From Corallococcus macrosporus (GTDB lineage: Bacteria; Myxococcota; Myxococcia; Myxococcales; Myxococcaceae), in NCBI RefSeq assembly GCF_017302985.1, contig NZ_JAFIMU010000017.1, positions 496,001 through 560,000 of the forward strand: 64,000 nucleotides of DNA, read 5' to 3'. How positions within the stretch are numbered: position 1 is the first letter of the stretch; every line of letters starts with the position of its first letter. The notes below the pieces were generated by a model, which saw nothing but the letters and a program-made list of their open reading frames with translations, was not told the origin of the DNA and ran no database searches. Shown here one piece after another: positions 24,518 to 44,915 of the stretch. The position numbers were made by a program, and so were the translations under genes.

Positions 24518-25663
24518 ATGCGACGCAAACTCGTGCTGCTGGTGCTGGCCGTGGCGGTGTGGCTGCCATCACTCCAGTTCCTGTTCCGGCCCCGGAATCC
24601 AGAGGCCCTGGCCGCGGCACTGGCCTTCCGCCAGCGCACGTTCTCGCTTCAGGAGCAGAGCGCGGACCGAGACGTGCTCCAGCGCACGAACCCGGAGTGG
24701 GACCTGATGGTGCGCACCTTCTCCGCGTTGTCGTTCGCGAACCTCGCGCTGTCGGAGCCCGCGCGAAGGGCGGAGCACCTGGCCGTGGTGGACGCGCTCA
24801 TCGCCCGGACGCGGCGCGACGAACGACGGGCACACGATGCCTTCTTCCTGCCCTACGTGAGCGCGGGGGCTTTCAAGGACCCCGCCGGGCGCAGCCTCTT
24901 CGTGGACGGTGAGCTGGCGTTGATGCTCGCCGCGCGCCAACTGGTGGAGCCGCGCTCGGACTACGCGCCGCTCCTGCGCGAGCGCGTGGACCTCATCACC
25001 GGACAACTGGAGCGGGCGCCGGTGCTCGCGGCGGAGAGCTATCCCGACGAGGGCTGGACCTTCTGCAACACGGTGGCGCTCGCCGCGCTGCGCCTGTCGG
25101 ACAGGGTGGATGGGCGGGACCACGGGGCACTGCTGCGCCGGTGGGTGGCCTCGGCGCGGGAGAACCTGTCCGACAGTCGGACAGGTTTGCTCGTGTCGAG
25201 CTTCACCTACGACGGCGTGACGAAGGACGGACCCGAGGGCTCGACGCTGTGGCTCGCGGCGCACATGCTCCAGGTGGTGGACGCGGACTTCGCGCGCGAC
25301 CAGTACCAGCGTGCACGCGCCGCGCTCCTGGGACAGGCGCTGGGCTTCACGTGGGCGGGGGAGTGGCCCGAGGCGCAGGCAGTGGCGGTGCAGGACATCG
25401 ACTCCGGGCCCACGATTCCGTGGGTGAACGCGAACGCGGGTTCCAGCGGGCTCGCGCTCGTGGGCGCGGCGGCGTTCGATGACGAGGAGGCGCTGGACGG
25501 GCTGCTCACCAGCCTCCACTTCGCGGCCTTCCCCGTGCATGACGACAAAGGCCTGCGCTTCGCGGCGGGCAACCCGCTCGCGGACGCGGTGCTGCTGTAC
25601 GCGCTCGTCGAAGGACCCCTCTGGCGCCTCGCGCAGGCGCCGCGGCTGGAGGCACACCGATGA
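24518..25663 (+). CDS. Membrane-anchored alpha/alpha-barrel-like protein (linalool dehydratase/isomerase-like, tentative)
   Basis: This 381-aa protein has one N-terminal hydrophobic anchor (LVLLVLAVAVWLPSLQFLF). The rest is helical with repeated aromatic/acidic motifs: FVDGELALMLAARQLV, ESYPDEGWTFCNTVALAAL, and GLLVSSFTYDGVTKDGPEGSTLW. The ordering recalls the linalool dehydratase/isomerase-like alpha6/alpha6 fold, recognised from memory without a search. The ATG at 24518 follows TGCCGGGC, a weak ribosome site. Codons for residues ENLSDSRTG are written by a perfect copy of the 25-bp palindrome found in the array near 36 kb. The stop overlaps the next gene (ATGA). Confidence 0.65.
   Translation: MRRKLVLLVLAVAVWLPSLQFLFRPRNPEALAAALAFRQRTFSLQEQSADRDVLQRTNPEWDLMVRTFSALSFANLALSEPARRAEHLAVVDALIARTRRDERRAHDAFFLPYVSAGAFKDPAGRSLFVDGELALMLAARQLVEPRSDYAPLLRERVDLITGQLERAPVLAAESYPDEGWTFCNTVALAALRLSDRVDGRDHGALLRRWVASARENLSDSRTGLLVSSFTYDGVTKDGPEGSTLWLAAHMLQVVDADFARDQYQRARAALLGQALGFTWAGEWPEAQAVAVQDIDSGPTIPWVNANAGSSGLALVGAAAFDDEEALDGLLTSLHFAAFPVHDDKGLRFAAGNPLADAVLLYALVEGPLWRLAQAPRLEAHR
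25163..25187. repeat. Palindrome copy inside a coding sequence
   Basis: This is a perfect copy of the 25-bp palindrome: arm AACCTGTCCGAC, a central A, then the complementary arm. Here it lies wholly within the gene at 24518-25663 and encodes part of ENLSDSRTG without interrupting the frame. It is identical to array copies 1 to 3 and to the copy at 44891. Confidence 0.95.
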
Positions 25664-33927: not shown

Positions 33928-35715
33928 TCACCACACGGCTTCGAGCTGGAGCATCACGCCGTGCTTCTCGTAGTTGCCGTTCGTGGCGTCGTACGCGTGG
34001 CAGAGGTGCGCCGAGCCCTCGCAGGCCGCGGCGTCGTCGTCCGCCAGGCGCGTGTCGATGTTGGAGCGGTTCACCAGCAATTCGTAGCGCGCGGTGAGCC
34101 GCAGGCGGGTCGACAGCCGGGTGCTCACGGTAGGGCTCAGCACGAAGCGTGTGTCGTGGCGGCGGCGGGCGTTCCACGTCTCGGTGTCGCCACCGGCCGT
34201 CACGACGCGCAGCGAGTGCTCCTCCAGGTAGCGGCGCCACTCCACGTCCGCGTCCAGGGTGGCGGTGAGCCAGGGCAGGGGTCGCCACCGGCCGGAGGCG
34301 CCCACGGCGTGGCTCGCGAAGCCGAATGGAATGACATACGTCTGTGATGCGAGGGTGGGGTCCTCGCTGGTGAAGGACTGCTCCAGCGTGCCGATGCGGT
34401 CCTGCCGGTAGCGGTACCACGCCGTGACGTTCGCGATGCCCAGGCGCCATTCCTGCGACAGCGTCGCGTCCAGGCGCGGGCCGGTGAGGTAGGCGAACTC
34501 CTCGCCGAGCCCGTCCTTGCCGGCGGCGCCCAGGTCCAGCCGCGTGGTGGTGTGTTCGGTTTCATCCCAGGCGAGCCAGGCGTTGGCGTTCACGGAGGCC
34601 TGGAGCCCCCGGAAGTCCGCCAGGCCGGTGAAGAAGATGTCTCCCCCCGCGAGCAGTCCCACGCGCACCCGTCGCGCGGCCTCCCACTCCACGGCCGCCG
34701 TCGCGCGGTGCAACTGGAGCGAGTAGTCCCGCACGGAGGACTCGGAGTAGGCGCGCTGGCTGCCGCCGTAGGACAGGGCCGCGAAGAGCCTGTCGGACAG
34801 GCGGAGGCGCGCGATGACGCCCACGCTGGCCTCGGCGAAGGCGCTCGAGGTCACCACGTCCGCGTTCGCGCCGGACACGTCGCGGGCCGCGACGCCCACC
34901 TGGAGCACGTTGCTGTCGAAGCCCGGCCCCACGCTGGCGGAAGCCCAGACGCCCGGGCCGCTGGAGCGCAGGCCGTAGGAGAGCAGGTCCAGGTACTGGT
35001 GCGCCGTCTTGCGGTCGAGCGGGCTCAGCGTCAGCGCGAGCGCCGCCGTGAGGTCTTCACGGGCCGCCGTGCGCGAGCCCAGGCGCCAGGCGGACGCGCC
35101 CGCCATGAGCCGGGCCCTGCCGGAGTCGGGCTGCTGCGTCGCCGCGCGTAGGAAGTGCGCACGGGCCTCGTCGAAGCGGCCGGCGTCGAAGGAAGCGAGT
35201 CCCTGGCGGTAGGCCTCATCCCCGTCGTTCGTGGCGGGCCTGATCAGCGCACGCAGTTCCTCCACCTGGAGGGCTTCTTCCTTGGATGCGCCCGGAGCAG
35301 CGCGATCCGCCCATTGCGACGCGCGGTCCAGGGCACCCGCATCGAACGCGGCGAAGCCCGCGTTGATCCACGCCGCACGGGCAAGCGGGGCCCCTTCACG
35401 GACGCGAGCGAAGGCCTCCTCCGCTTCCACGAAGCGCCCCAGTGCATAGAGACAAGCGCCCCGGTTGAAGTTCCAGGCATCGGGCTCCGGAGCATCCGGC
35501 GCGAGTCCCGCCGCATCCAGGGCCTCGAGCGCCTCAGCGGGGCGGCCGGTGCGGAATCGCGCCAGACCCACGAGGTACAGCGAGGCGCCGGACGGCGGGG
35601 CCTGGAGCGCCAGTTGTTCGGCCTCCGAGTACCGGCCCGCCGCGAAGGACTCGCGCGCGTCCGTCAACGGCTCCCCGGCCGCGAGTGCCACCAGGAGCAG
35701 CAGGCCCGTCCACAC
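33928..35715 (-). CDS. Outer-membrane protein with TPR-like N-terminus and beta-barrel C-terminus
   Basis: This 595-aa protein has a short signal peptide (LLLLVALAAGE). Residues about 18-245 have tetratricopeptide-like helices (AAGRYSEAEQLAL, ALGRFVEAEEAFARV, DAGRFDEARAHFLRA). From about residue 265 to the end, alternating amphipathic strands and a terminal aromatic residue (LQLEAVW) indicate an outer-membrane beta-barrel. The start is a GTG at 35715 after CAGGG. Such architectures appear in export or assembly proteins, but no specific partner is encoded next to it. Its upstream side is the 1.1-kb palindrome-array region. Confidence 0.82.
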   Translation of the reverse strand: MWTGLLLLVALAAGEPLTDARESFAAGRYSEAEQLALQAPPSGASLYLVGLARFRTGRPAEALEALDAAGLAPDAPEPDAWNFNRGACLYALGRFVEAEEAFARVREGAPLARAAWINAGFAAFDAGALDRASQWADRAAPGASKEEALQVEELRALIRPATNDGDEAYRQGLASFDAGRFDEARAHFLRAATQQPDSGRARLMAGASAWRLGSRTAAREDLTAALALTLSPLDRKTAHQYLDLLSYGLRSSGPGVWASASVGPGFDSNVLQVGVAARDVSGANADVVTSSAFAEASVGVIARLRLSDRLFAALSYGGSQRAYSESSVRDYSLQLHRATAAVEWEAARRVRVGLLAGGDIFFTGLADFRGLQASVNANAWLAWDETEHTTTRLDLGAAGKDGLGEEFAYLTGPRLDATLSQEWRLGIANVTAWYRYRQDRIGTLEQSFTSEDPTLASQTYVIPFGFASHAVGASGRWRPLPWLTATLDADVEWRRYLEEHSLRVVTAGGDTETWNARRRHDTRFVLSPTVSTRLSTRLRLTARYELLVNRSNIDTRLADDDAAACEGSAHLCHAYDATNGNYEKHGVMLQLEAVW

Positions 35716-36822
35716 GCACCCTGACGTACCCCATTCCCCTCAAGTGAGCGAGGACCGCGCACCGCGCCAACGGCCACGGGTTGAACGAGGGAGCCCCCCG
35801 GTGCGCACCGACCCGGCCCGCCTCCACAGAGCCTGTCCGTGAGTGGCCCCGGTCCGCGGCGCACCGCGCGAACCTGTCCGACAGTCGGACAGGTTTTGGG
35901 CTACCGCACCGGGCGCCCCTGCGCTGACACGCTCCGGCTGGCGTTCCCCGGGCCTGCCTCGTCACCCACCGTGGCCGGGCTTCTCCAGCCAGGGAGGATG
36001 AACCTGTCCGACAGTCGGACAGGTTTGGGACCACCGCACCGAGCCCCCTGTGCTGACGTACCCGCGCTGGCTTTTCCCGCGCATGCCTCGTCGCCCACCG
36101 TGGCCGGAGGCTTCTCCAGCCAGGCAGCGGAAACCTGTCCGACAGTCGGACAGGTTTGGGGCCACCGCTCGCCAAGGCCGGTGCTGACGTATCCCCGCTG
36201 GCGTTCCCGGGCCTGCCTCGTCACCCACCGTGGCCGGGAGGCTCCGGTTTCGTCCAGGCAGCGGGAACTGGTCCGACAGTCGGACAGGTTGGGGCCACCG
36301 CTCGCCAGGCCCTGAGTTGGCGAACTTCCGCTGGCCTCCTCAATCGAGCCCGCCTCGTCACGCTCGATGGCCGGACCGCTTCCGTTCCCTCCAGGCCTCG
36401 GAAGCCGGTCCGACAGTCGGACCGGTTTGGACCACTGCGGTAGGTCCCTTGCGCCGACGCGCTTCCGCTGGCGGTCCCCGTGGATCTGCTTCGTCATCCA
36501 CTGCTGCCGGGAGGCTTCCGGTTCATCCCAGCAGCGGGAACTGGTCCGACAGTCGGACAGGTTTGGACCCGGCGCGGGCCGACCCTGTGCTGACGAACTC
36601 CGCCGAGGTTCTCCACCGGGCCAGCCCCGTCACGCTTGGTGGCTGGGAGGTTTCCGTTTCAACCATGCAGCTTGAACCTGCCCGACAGTCGGACAGGTTC
36701 TTCATCCGAGAGGCTGAACGTGGATGCGCAGGAGCAGTTCGCGGAGACCTGACCCGGTGTCTGGCAAGGGGCACCGGATGCGGCTTCGGTGGTGTGCCGC
36801 TCCGTGCCTTTCATGGCGGGCT
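35716..36822. other. 1.1-kb intergenic region holding the palindrome array
   Basis: There is no credible gene here. The open frames that cross it change with unit length (130 to 137 bp) and encode only the repeat read in different frames. Positions 35871-36699 are the tandem array described separately. The flanks 35716-35870 and 36700-36822 show no clear promoter or hairpin. The region lies upstream of the barrel-protein gene and downstream of the ECF operon, all on the minus strand. Confidence 0.8.
35871..36699. repeat. Tandem array of seven palindrome-bearing repeat units
   Basis: Seven copies of a 25-bp palindrome (arm AACCTGTCCGAC, a central A, complementary arm) start at 35871, 36001, 36132, 36266, 36403, 36539 and 36675. 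Spacing is 130, 131, 134, 137, 136 and 136 bp. Copies 1-3 are perfect; copies 4 and 6 have AACTGG in the left arm; copy 7 has one C for T; copy 5 is changed on both sides to keep pairing. The spacers are also homologous (TTGGG-CCACCG, TGCTGACG, GCCTGCCTCGTC-ACC, GTGGCCGG, CCAG) but diverge far more than the palindromes. As RNA each copy would form a 10-bp stem with loop ACAGU. Confidence 0.95.
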
Positions 36823-37269
36823 TCAGCGCCGGGGCTGCTGCGGGGGCGGTTGCTGGTTGGGCGGCGGTGGCGCGCCGTCGGTCCTGGGGGACGGCGAGCG
36901 CATGCGGCCTTCATCCCCTGGCGGACGCGACCCGTTGGGGCGGCCCTCGTGTCCAGGCCCCCCGGACGGTCCCCTGGCGTCAGGTCCCGGGGGCGGGCGG
37001 ACCGTGTCACCTCGGGGCGGCGGGGCAGGGCGCTCCGCGTTCCTGCGCCCCAGGATGGTGTCCACCTGCTCCCCTGGCGCGATGACGTCCACCGTGTGCG
37101 AGCTGCGCACGTGCGGCGTCTGCTGCGCGCCGGAGGGCGGAGGCACGGGCGCTTCAGGTGGCCTCGCGGCCTCCGTTGGCGGAGGTGCCGGGGCCTGCTG
37201 CGCTTGCGCGGGTCCGCCTCCCCACCACAGGAGCACGGCGACGGCCGGTGTCGAGAGCCAGGTCTTCAT
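36823..37269 (-). CDS. Exported proline-rich protein
   Basis: This 148-aa protein has signal KTWLSTPAVAVLLWWGGGPAQAQ. The mature part is dominated by Pro, Gly and Arg (APAPPPTEAARPPEAPVPPP; ends NQQPPPQQPRR) and is probably disordered. A short non-repetitive core, HVRSSHTVDVIAPGEQVDTILGRR, may be the functional piece. The ATG at 37269 overlaps the stop of the anti-sigma-like gene (ATGA). It is the third gene of a tightly overlapped operon with an ECF sigma factor, so it may take part in envelope stress signalling; this is inference. Confidence 0.72.
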   Translation of the reverse strand: MKTWLSTPAVAVLLWWGGGPAQAQQAPAPPPTEAARPPEAPVPPPSGAQQTPHVRSSHTVDVIAPGEQVDTILGRRNAERPAPPPRGDTVRPPPGPDARGPSGGPGHEGRPNGSRPPGDEGRMRSPSPRTDGAPPPPNQQPPPQQPRR

Positions 37270-37865
37270 CCGCCCGTGACCTCCAGCACCACGTCGTGCT
37301 CGATGCGCTGGTCGCCCGCGCGCGCCAGCGCCGTGACCAGATAGCGCCCCGGCCGCTGCCCACGCACCGCGATGGGGATCACGTTGCTGCCCGCGCTCAA
37401 CGGCTGCGTCCATTGATAGGAACGCAGCGGCAGCTCCTCTCCGTCCGCCCAGAAGGACAGCCCCTCCGGCAGACTCACCTGGAAGTCCGCCTGCTCCACG
37501 GCCACGTCCGCCGTGAAGTCCAGCTTGATGACCGCCACCTTGCTCACCGGCACCTGCGTACCGGGCCGCTCGAGCTCCGCCATTCCCGGCGCTTCCGTCC
37601 CGGTGGCTCCAGGCGTCCCGCGCACCGCGCCCAGCACCAGGAAGGTGGCCACGCCCATGGCGACGCCCACCGCCGGCCAGAGCACCGGCGCGCGCCGCCT
37701 CCAGAAGTCCCGCACCGCATCCCACCCCGACGCCGGTGTGGGAGGACCGGCCTCCACCAGCCGACGGTGGAGCAGGGCCTGGAAGTCGGGCCCGGGCGCG
37801 TCGTCCCGCAGCGCCGCCAGACGCTCGCGCAGCGCGCGGTCCTCCCTGTCCTCGGGCTCACTCAT
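37266..37865 (-). CDS. Putative anti-sigma factor (membrane protein)
   Basis: This 199-aa single-pass membrane protein has a cytoplasmic N-terminal segment of about 58 residues (LRERLAALRDDAPGPDFQALLHRRL), one transmembrane helix (LWPAVGVAMGVATFLVLGAV) and a periplasmic beta-rich domain (KVAVIKLDFTADVAVEQADFQVSLPEGL). Position directly after an ECF sigma gene, with a 4-bp overlap, makes an anti-sigma role likely. The HxxxCxxC motif of zinc anti-sigma proteins is absent. The ATG at 37865 overlaps the sigma factor's stop. Confidence 0.75.
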   Translation of the reverse strand: MSEPEDREDRALRERLAALRDDAPGPDFQALLHRRLVEAGPPTPASGWDAVRDFWRRRAPVLWPAVGVAMGVATFLVLGAVRGTPGATGTEAPGMAELERPGTQVPVSKVAVIKLDFTADVAVEQADFQVSLPEGLSFWADGEELPLRSYQWTQPLSAGSNVIPIAVRGQRPGRYLVTALARAGDQRIEHDVVLEVTGG

Positions 37866-38497
37866 TTCCTGCTCCTTGCCGCATGCGACGTAATGTCCGG
37901 CCCGGATGTTCCATCCAGGCCCGCTTCCTGCGGGCCGTCAGGGCCCTGGCCCCCCGCCAGCAGGGCCTTCAGGTGCGCCCGGCCCCGCGACAGGCGCGAC
38001 TTCACGGTGCCCACCGGCACCCCTTCAATGGCCGCCACCTCTTCATAGCTGTGCCCTTCCACGTCGAAGAGCACCACCGCCGTACGGAACTCCGGCGGCA
38101 GCCGCCGGAGCGCCCGCCACAGCCGGTCCCGCTCCTGGGCCCGCATGAGCCCTTCGTCCGCGGACTCGGCGTCCGACGCCGCCTTCGCGTGCTCCTGCTC
38201 CAGCGGCTCCTCGCGCGAGCGCTCGCGGCCGGCGCGGCTGCGGGTGGCGTCGTAGAACGCGTTGCGCACCACCGAATAGAGCCACGTCTGGAACTCGGAC
38301 TGGAAGCGGAACGAGCGCAGATTCTTGTAGACCTTCACCAGCGCTTCCTGCGCCAGGTCGTCCACGTCCGAGTCCGACGCGGCGAAGGCTCGCGCGAAGC
38401 GGCGCACGCGCGGCAGGTGCGAGGACACGAGCAGTTCAAAGGCACGCACGCTGCCGTCCTGGGCTTCGAGGATGAGTGCGCGCAGCTCGTCGTTCAC
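37862..38497 (-). CDS. ECF-type RNA polymerase sigma factor
   Basis: This 211-aa sigma factor has region 2 (FELLVSSHLPRVRRFARAFA ... DVDDLAQEALVKVYKNLRSF, then FQTWLYSVVRNAFYD) and region 4 (LRRLPPEFRTAVVLFDVEGHSYEEVA ... GTVKSRLSRGRAHL), both typical of the RpoE-like ECF group. A short Gly/Pro tail follows. The start is inferred as the GTG at 38497, because upstream residues look non-coding; no strong ribosome binding site is visible. It is first in an operon with an anti-sigma-like protein and a Pro-rich exported protein, and it is divergent from a lipoprotein gene. Confidence 0.93.
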   Translation of the reverse strand: MNDELRALILEAQDGSVRAFELLVSSHLPRVRRFARAFAASDSDVDDLAQEALVKVYKNLRSFRFQSEFQTWLYSVVRNAFYDATRSRAGRERSREEPLEQEHAKAASDAESADEGLMRAQERDRLWRALRRLPPEFRTAVVLFDVEGHSYEEVAAIEGVPVGTVKSRLSRGRAHLKALLAGGQGPDGPQEAGLDGTSGPDITSHAARSRK

Positions 38498-40672: not shown

Positions 40673-42382
40673 ATGACCCATGATTCCATCCAGCGCCTGG
40701 GGCGCTGGCTCCGCGTCATTGCCCTGGGGGCGACCGCGACGCTCGCCTCCACCGCCGCGGCCCAGGTCGCCAACGTCCGCGGGGACGACCCCGTCATCAG
40801 CGCGGGCGCGTACCACGGCTGTGGCCTGAAGCTGGACGGCACGCTGGGTTGTTGGGGCAATGGCTGGCATGGCCAGAACGTGGCCCCGTCCGGCACCTTC
40901 ACGCAGGTGAGCGGCGGCTACTTCCACACCTGCGGTGTGAAGTCGGACGGCTCGGTGGCGTGCTGGGGCGCCAACGACGGCGGGCAGACGGCCGCGCCCT
41001 CGGGGACGTTCAAGCAGGTCACCAGCGGTGGGCACTTCTCCTGCGGGCTGCGCACGGACGACACGGTGGCGTGCTGGGGCGCCAACGACAACGGCCAGGC
41101 CACGGCGCCCTCCGGCACGTTCCGCCAGCTGAGCGCGGGCGTGTGGCACGCGTGCGGTGTGAAGACGGACGGCACTGCGGCGTGCTGGGGCGGGAACTGG
41201 GCGGGCCAGGCGCTGGCGCCCACCGGCGCCTTCACGCAGGTGACCTCGGGCGAGCTGCACAGCTGCGGCCTCAAGAGCGACGGCACGGGGGTCTGCTGGG
41301 GAGACACCAGTCAGGGGCGGGCCTCGGTGCCGGCGGGCACGTTCGTGCAGATCAACGCGGGCGACCACCACACCTGCGGCGTGAACACGACGGGGACCTT
41401 GTCGTGCTGGGGCTCCAACGCGAAGGGCGAGGCCACGCCTCCCACGGGGACCTTCGTCCAGGTGGCGGCGGGCTATGACAACACCTGCGCGCTGAAGTCC
41501 GACGGCAGCGTGGTGTGCTGGGGCAGCACGGAGTACGGCCAGGGCACCAACCTGCCGACGACGCCCGTGTTCGGCAACAACCCGGGGCTGAACCTGACGC
41601 CCACGCGCCACATCAGCGCGGGCTACCGGGGCATGTTCTGCGGGGTGACCTCGGCGGGCAGCCTGTCGTGCTGGTCGAAGCACTACGTGCCGGAGTACGC
41701 CCCGGTGGGCACGTTCGCGCAGGTGAGCGTGTCCGACGGCGGCGTGTGCGCGCTGCGCACGGACGGCTCGCCGGTGTGCTGGGGGCTCTCCCTCTACGTG
41801 CCCAACACCAACACCGACCGCTTCGTGCAACTGGCCACGGGCCAGTACCACGTCTGCGGCCGCCGGACCGACGGTACCGTGAAGTGCTGGGGCAATGGCT
41901 ACTACGGCCAGCTCGCCGTGCCGCTCGCCACCTTCACGCAGATTGACGCGGGCGGCAGCCACACCTGCGGCGTGAAGGCGGATGGCACCGCGGTGTGCTG
42001 GGGGGATGACTTCGGCGGGCAGAGCAGCGCCACGCCGGCGGGGGCCTTCACCTCCGTGGCCGCGAGCTGCAACAGCAGTTGCGGCATCCGTCCGGATGGC
42101 AGCGTGGTGTGCTGGGGCTTCAACGGCATGGGCCAGAACAACGCGCCCGCGGGTGTCTTCACCCAGGTGGACCTGGGCTGCAACCTGAGCTGCGCGCTGA
42201 AGGCGGACGGCACCTCGCAGTGCTGGGCGGGCTACTCCCTCAGCCCGCTGGTGCGCACGGATGGCCCCTTCAGCCAGATCGTCACCGGCATGGATGAGGC
42301 ATGCGTGCTGCGCCCCTCGGGCGCGGTGAGCTGCTGGGACCGGGACGGCACCTGGCCCGGTGCACCGGCCAGCTTCCCGTAG
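40673..42382 (+). CDS. Secreted RCC1-repeat protein
   Basis: This 569-aa exported protein has a signal peptide ending ATLASTAAAQV and then fourteen repeats of about 37 residues. Each carries the core C-G-x-K/R-x-D-G-(T/S)-x-x-C-W-G, so each has two Cys bracketing the turn and a Trp-Gly. The repeats match the RCC1/BLIP-II type and should form two seven-bladed propellers or one long one. Repeats 8, 13 and 14 are the most degenerate. The paired Cys probably form a disulphide in each blade. The ATG at 40673 follows GGGGGACC. Bacterial relatives bind proteins or surfaces; the ligand is unknown. Confidence 0.92.
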   Translation: MTHDSIQRLGRWLRVIALGATATLASTAAAQVANVRGDDPVISAGAYHGCGLKLDGTLGCWGNGWHGQNVAPSGTFTQVSGGYFHTCGVKSDGSVACWGANDGGQTAAPSGTFKQVTSGGHFSCGLRTDDTVACWGANDNGQATAPSGTFRQLSAGVWHACGVKTDGTAACWGGNWAGQALAPTGAFTQVTSGELHSCGLKSDGTGVCWGDTSQGRASVPAGTFVQINAGDHHTCGVNTTGTLSCWGSNAKGEATPPTGTFVQVAAGYDNTCALKSDGSVVCWGSTEYGQGTNLPTTPVFGNNPGLNLTPTRHISAGYRGMFCGVTSAGSLSCWSKHYVPEYAPVGTFAQVSVSDGGVCALRTDGSPVCWGLSLYVPNTNTDRFVQLATGQYHVCGRRTDGTVKCWGNGYYGQLAVPLATFTQIDAGGSHTCGVKADGTAVCWGDDFGGQSSATPAGAFTSVAASCNSSCGIRPDGSVVCWGFNGMGQNNAPAGVFTQVDLGCNLSCALKADGTSQCWAGYSLSPLVRTDGPFSQIVTGMDEACVLRPSGAVSCWDRDGTWPGAPASFP

Positions 42383-44890: not shown

Positions 44891-44915
44891 AACCTGTCCG
44901 ACAGTCGGACAGGTT
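44891..44915. repeat. Solitary copy of the 25-bp palindrome
   Basis: This is a perfect copy, flanked by A on the left and TTTT on the right. It lies 33 bp beyond the stop of the M16 protease gene (minus strand) and about 90 bp upstream of the next minus-strand gene. In this position the hairpin, followed by TTTG when read on the minus strand, could terminate the protease transcript. Confidence 0.95.

Follow-up and report, generated by a model that had tools for sequence, protein, structure and literature searches.

The closest described systems are the REP/BIME repeats of Enterobacteria and Pseudomonas (GTAG super-family, RAYT-associated): short hairpins, imperfect or perfect, with many dispersed extragenic copies, a preference for convergent and unidirectional gaps, co-varying stems and clusters of variable copy number. 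The Corallococcus palindrome family described here shares these traits, but it has no GTAG tag, no RAYT was detected in the genus, its arrays are mostly head-to-tail with 40-140-bp periods, and its loop base is polarised by replication. The intergenic mosaic elements of Neisseria consist of dRS3 inverted repeats with RS spacers between them. These too are intergenic arrays, built from a short conserved inverted repeat in alternation with spacers that vary more; their sequence is unrelated, however, and the spacers of any one Corallococcus array were copied from a single local unit. CGTC-tagged REPs have been reported without a dedicated transposase (PMC3733652). Like them, the Corallococcus family has a stem that starts with AA/TT pairs, and no dedicated transposase was detected for it. 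Unlike them, it does not have the required CGTC head/CCA tail order (the arrangement is CACG-stem-TGGA), it has a triloop rather than a loop of 4-5 nt and an 11-bp rather than an 8-9-bp stem, and clusters, which are rare in CGTC REPs, are common (PMC3733652).

The window (the whole stretch of DNA analysed, 64,000 nucleotides) contains seven 25-bp palindromes at 35871-36699, which an earlier note on this sequence had reported; all seven positions were confirmed, with spacings of 130, 131, 134, 137, 136 and 136 bp. The region had been described as gene-free over 1.1 kb, and it is indeed bounded by gene ends at 35715 and 36823, the two flanking genes being co-directional on the minus strand. The features of the window are listed below.

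25163..25187, plus strand: single exact palindrome within an Ldi-like coding sequence (24533-25660)
33928..35715, minus strand: TPR-repeat gene, its 5' end adjoining the gap
35716..36822, no strand: gene-free gap (1.1 kb) around the array; its counterpart in genomes G015 and G001 is 217-220 bp and palindrome-free
35866..36699, plus strand: tandem array of 130-137-bp units; spacers mutually homologous, 33% diverged
35871..35895, plus strand: palindrome copy 1, exact, AACCTGTCCGACAGTCGGACAGGTT; element flanks ggcgcaccgcgcg...tttgggctacc
36001..36025, plus strand: palindrome copy 2, exact
36132..36156, plus strand: palindrome copy 3, exact
36266..36290, plus strand: palindrome copy 4, mixed arms AACTGG...CAGGTT
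36403..36427, plus strand: palindrome copy 5, arms AGCCGG...CCGGTT
36539..36563, plus strand: palindrome copy 6, mixed arms AACTGG...CAGGTT
36675..36699, plus strand: palindrome copy 7, single core mismatch
36823..37269, minus strand: short proline-rich reading frame, its 3' end adjoining the gap; 4-bp overlap with 37266-37865
37862..38497, minus strand: ECF-type sigma factor gene, upstream, first gene of a likely operon
44891..44915, plus strand: single exact palindrome, intergenic; present in G011 with one mismatch

Three of the seven palindromes are exact, and the remaining four are off by 2, 3, 2 and 1 positions, mostly variable arm positions. The 17-mer core is matched 18 times in the window with up to three mismatches, compared to 0.24 expected. 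Across the array, divergence is 1.7% at the 20 core positions and 33% in the spacers. The spacers are homologous to each other and TRF also called the array (131/137 bp), in agreement with the proposal that they are drifted copies of one unit. For the same reason a CRISPR array was rejected. The reading frame at 36823..37269 gave no Pfam match and is the last gene of an apparent ECF-sigma operon. An Rfam search of the window returned no match.

Outside the array, the site at 25163-25187 has orthologues of equal length with 3-5 mismatches in G011, G013 and G010, and looks like a near-palindrome turned perfect without insertion. At 44891..44915, the palindrome was not found in G013 or C. carmarthensis. 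The window also holds a coding tandem repeat at 40882-41301 (111-bp unit, 3.8 copies) and tandem repeats at 864-1215 whose unit resembles collagen-type G-x-y repeats.

Corallococcus is a soil predator, and the 9.8-Mb genome from which the window is taken has about 136 copies of AACNNGTCCGACWGTCGGACNNGTT (intact core) compared to 0 for a reversed control. The genome count that had been proposed as a check is thus far above chance. Among the fetched loci, copies with 0, 1, 2 and 3 core mismatches numbered 128, 30, 17 and 14, while the control gave none with fewer than four; the core is therefore intact in 128 of 189 recognisable copies. These group into 75 clusters of 1 to 18 copies each, with periods of about 40, 55, 66-74, 85, 100-114 and 127-137 bp, 66-74 bp being commonest. 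All 16 Corallococcus genomes carry the palindrome, at 1-136 copies each: copy-rich species have about 60-136 intact copies per ~10 Mb and five sister species 1-9. No intact copy was found in 27 genomes of g37 (taken as Myxococcus), whereas four of six genomes of g8 (taken as Archangium) and one of seven of g27 have 2-12 each. Among the matches listed were Corallococcus species, Archangium violaceum, Hyalangium versicolor and a Myxococcaceae MAG. Three g8 genomes yielded 60-89 copies of related stems when mismatches were allowed; some of the g8 variants have CCA/TGG or CAA/TTG loops, and in some a stem pair has changed at both positions, from G-C to A-T. No convincing neighbours common to the Archangium and Corallococcus copies were found. 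The window array represents a single local cluster of a repeat that forms hairpins and is dispersed between genes across Corallococcus.

The consensus is a 25-bp stem-loop, AAC-NN-GTCCGA-[CWG]-TCGGAC-NN-GTT, with 11 bp in the stem and 3 nt in the loop. Two arm types predominate (AACCTG...CAGGTT and AACTGG...CCAGTT), and rarer types coexist with them. Taking one copy per cluster, the arms match in 61 of 70 clusters, compared to 32 after permuting arms, and single-strand folding gave the 11-bp-stem/3-nt-loop hairpin in every case tried. The matched arms and the triloop variation in Archangium agree, and a stem-loop would fit both. Of 185 copies, 182 have A or T at the centre of the palindrome. 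The flanks of unlinked copies have a motif in common, CGGCGCACCGCACG before the palindrome and TGGA after it (log-likelihood 1785 compared to about 290 for shuffled flanks; consensus TCCA-palindrome-CNCGCGG), and the copied element must therefore be longer than the palindrome. It is loosely conserved over roughly 60-75 bp, its ends being approximate because the flanks are diverged. MITEs have defined ends that carry terminal inverted repeats, and a target-site duplication. An outer inverted repeat is clear in Archangium; in Corallococcus, where diverged flanks blur the element ends, the signal of a long outer inverted repeat is weak. In the orthologous gaps of G003 (L034) and G010 (L050), shortened palindromes such as AACCTGTCSGACAGGTT, with the central 8 bp missing, occur among full copies.

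In the genome of the window, 71 of the 75 clusters are extragenic by the gene calls, which are approximate and were made with a purpose-made codon-usage caller that missed, for example, the reading frame 36823-37269. Gaps holding clusters are convergent in 28 cases and divergent in 6 (P = 2e-4), and in G005 and G013 in 24 and 4, respectively. In co-directional gaps, copies lie a median of 68 bp past the 3' end of the upstream gene, and the closest copy to a downstream start is at 71 bp. This placement, together with the symmetric arms, would suit RNA hairpins that end or protect mRNAs, the palindrome being kept for that reason and arrays strengthening the effect. The window array, however, sits between two co-directional genes and has neither a U-tract nor a terminator call, and the centre base shows no orientation relative to gene strand (16:13), so that we regard RNA hairpins as an unlikely explanation of the family. 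An intrinsic terminator was rejected for this array, with no T-tract or terminator-like site in 35600-36900, and the earlier suggestion of a chain of such terminators found no support in it.

A few copies lie inside coding sequence, including in-frame arrays in an NRPS adenylation domain. There, two palindromes lie 60 bp apart just before YTSGSTGTPKG (L119:6053-6137, same genome as the window), and the orthologue (L230:2295-2680) has seven at 57- or 60-bp steps, an in-frame expansion. At L116:5874-6240, four palindromes are 114 bp (38 codons) apart within a 2221-aa reading frame, the orthologue of which (L174) has one.

At the gap orthologous to that of the window, two palindromes were found in G011, two in G013, nine in G010, at least three in G002, several on separate contigs in G003, and none in G015 or G001. 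Copy number also differed at other orthologous sites (18 versus 2, 7 versus 2, 6 versus 1, 11 versus none), although presence is over-represented here, many of the relatives' loci having been fetched for containing the palindrome. Where stretches were fetched by position, palindromes were present at every intergenic site compared in G011 and missing from several in G013. The patchy distribution of the family, and its large copy-number differences among sister species, could indicate neutral debris, that is, a recently spread, role-less repeat conserved merely through youth. Yet in 27 well-aligned orthologous pairs the flanks have diverged by 25% and arm positions by 32%, compared to 3.9% for the core, a value biased low since orthologous palindromes had to be recognisable. 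Within arrays, the core is slower than the spacer in 43 of 44 cases (0.115 versus 0.324), a comparison that takes in decayed units and agrees with the orthologues on core conservation. Both comparisons disfavour neutral debris, which we consider highly improbable. They also uphold the view that conservation resides in the palindrome itself, and at sister loci, which the earlier note had named as a check, the palindrome is kept while the spacers drift. Seven of the 27 pairs showed a joint change at all four arm positions. Of 24 well-aligned pairs with A/T centres, 9 had the centre flipped, as in the C7:64.9 kb region of the window's genome compared to L241, where the palindrome and near flanks are otherwise alike.

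The centre base is polarised relative to replication. With the origin placed at dnaA and the terminus assumed opposite, the centre A is on the leading strand at 122 loci and on the lagging strand at 42 (122/164, four genomes; P = 3e-10). In three complete genomes, the leading-strand share starts at 88% and 87% for the first two Mb from the origin and is 55% near the terminus. The complete genomes G005 and G013 gave 47:8 clusters for centre A leading, whereas the element's own orientation relative to replication (30:26) and the centre relative to gene strand (16:13) were unbiased. The polarity thus belongs to the loop base and not to insertion direction or transcription. All nine palindromes of the window, seven in the array and two single, carry the central A on the plus strand. 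At the orthologous G013 site, in the left replichore, the window's plus strand is the leading one, in agreement with the general bias. The AACTGG-arm subfamily of the window's genome divides evenly (6:6 clusters).

Several causes of the strand bias were rejected. Insertion polarity, at which a small G009 sample (13:3 against) had hinted, was not upheld by the flank orientation of 30:26. Gene direction fails on the same 16:13 count, genes in the sampled loci being 222:208 leading, and base-composition skew fails on a leading-strand intergenic A/(A+T) of 0.491. Nor was a general odd-palindrome effect seen: unrelated odd palindromes with arms of at least 7 gave 42:31, which is not significant.

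Motif orientation tracks replication direction as KOPS- or Chi-like polar motifs require (122:42 loci; 47:8 clusters). A sequence-specific DNA-binding or translocating factor could read the palindrome, its centre base giving direction and selection keeping A on the leading strand. The core, invariant across species, the near-exclusive A/T centre, where unrelated odd palindromes have mostly G/C, and a bias strong near the origin and weak near the terminus are all consistent with such a system. Against it, about a quarter of loci are oriented the wrong way and centre flips are common at orthologous sites. Moreover, copy number reaches about 60-136 per ~10 Mb at most, falls to 1-9 in five sister species and is essentially nil in Myxococcus; so low and patchy a number argues against an essential chromosome-wide code. 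Altogether, we judge a polar binding-site system to be quite unlikely. Among the factors proposed in the earlier note, a partition or nucleoid factor may still act at the palindromes but has no direct support, and phase variation gained none.

Polarity would also follow if a REP-associated tyrosine transposase moved the palindromes on lagging-strand single-stranded DNA. The repeat is palindromic, extragenic, clustered and replication-polarised, and Archangium relatives (genera g8 and g26; L304-L313) encode multi-copy RAYT-like proteins of ~310-420 aa with an NHFHLLV-type HUH motif, one of which matches NF047646 with an E of 1.5e-13, under the curated cut-off. However, neither PF01797 nor NF047646 had a match in the 16 Corallococcus genomes, and an Archangium RAYT-like query gave nothing convincing there beyond two marginal partial matches (E 0.03-0.07). 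The Corallococcus palindrome was not found within the ~3.2 kb fetched around the Archangium RAYT-like genes, no GTAG or CGTC tag adjoins the stem in the flank consensus, and only the centre base, not the orientation of the element flanks, is polarised. The classical REP/RAYT reading is already weakened by these results, and we find it very doubtful.

The behaviour of the family is nevertheless that of REPs. It consists of a 25-bp palindrome, within the 20-40 bp usual for REP elements, with about 136 intact copies and 71 of 75 clusters extragenic; its stems co-vary, both in the excess of symmetric clusters over permuted ones (61 of 70 versus 32) and in the G-C to A-T double change in Archangium; and it forms BIME-like clusters of up to 18 copies whose number varies at orthologous sites. 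The earlier statement that the palindrome matches no REP thus holds for sequence, no known REP being matched, but not for behaviour, as the copies are dispersed near gene 3' ends, co-vary in their arms and cluster. We conclude that the array is probably a local tandem amplification of a dispersed, non-autonomous, transposase-orphan REP-like hairpin element of Corallococcus (probability roughly 0.6). The element would have been spread by an enzyme since lost or of an unrecognised kind; no mobile copy was caught moving in the genomes compared. Single copies may then have become arrays by tandem duplication, as homologous spacers and differing copy numbers suggest, and the core would be maintained either through selection on the hairpin or because it is copied repeatedly. 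A role in the cell, as a 3'-end mRNA hairpin or a protein site, would be plausible. None of the papers searched described such repeats in Corallococcus or Archangium, and a RAYT-orphan REP-like family with an unusual, replication-polarised loop base appears to be new.

For the centre-base polarity of this REP-like element, replication-coupled loop inversion is the cause we would favour. Template switching at inverted repeats evens out arms and inverts short spacers (PMC8604942), and reporters in E. coli show more of it on the leading strand (PMC6357072). Switching of this kind across the hairpin could even out the arms and invert the loop with a fork-direction bias. Compared to those studies (PMC8604942, PMC6357072), inversion in Corallococcus is deduced from between-species comparisons, and the biased end state is specific to the family. 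A pure flip process is symmetric; to end up biased, it would have to run at different rates on the two loops. Since unrelated odd palindromes have no significant bias, something specific to the palindrome sequence presumably takes part; this makes a general mutational cause doubtful, and a protein may recognise the sequence. Template switching alone leaves the constant core and the A/T-only centre unaccounted for, the former needing selection or repeated copying in addition. Tentatively, and with much less than even odds, the hairpin centre may be a replication mark, in which forks repeatedly invert or rewrite the loop base to place A on the leading strand, with a palindrome-specific host protein taking part.

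If the REP-like reading is right, the family is relevant to the question of whether such repeats need a RAYT in order to spread or persist, none being found in the genus. The loop base would then let evolutionary comparison read replication-coupled hairpin events directly, at dozens of sites in each genome. Element orientation and gene strand provide built-in controls, and such events are otherwise studied in artificial reporters. Palindrome arrays of up to 18 copies at gene 3' ends should not be read as CRISPRs or regulons, and the copies in the NRPS adenylation domain indicate that the same process alters proteins. If the hairpin centre is indeed a replication mark, the family would naturally record the local direction of forks in Corallococcus, and the cell might read it as a polar signal.
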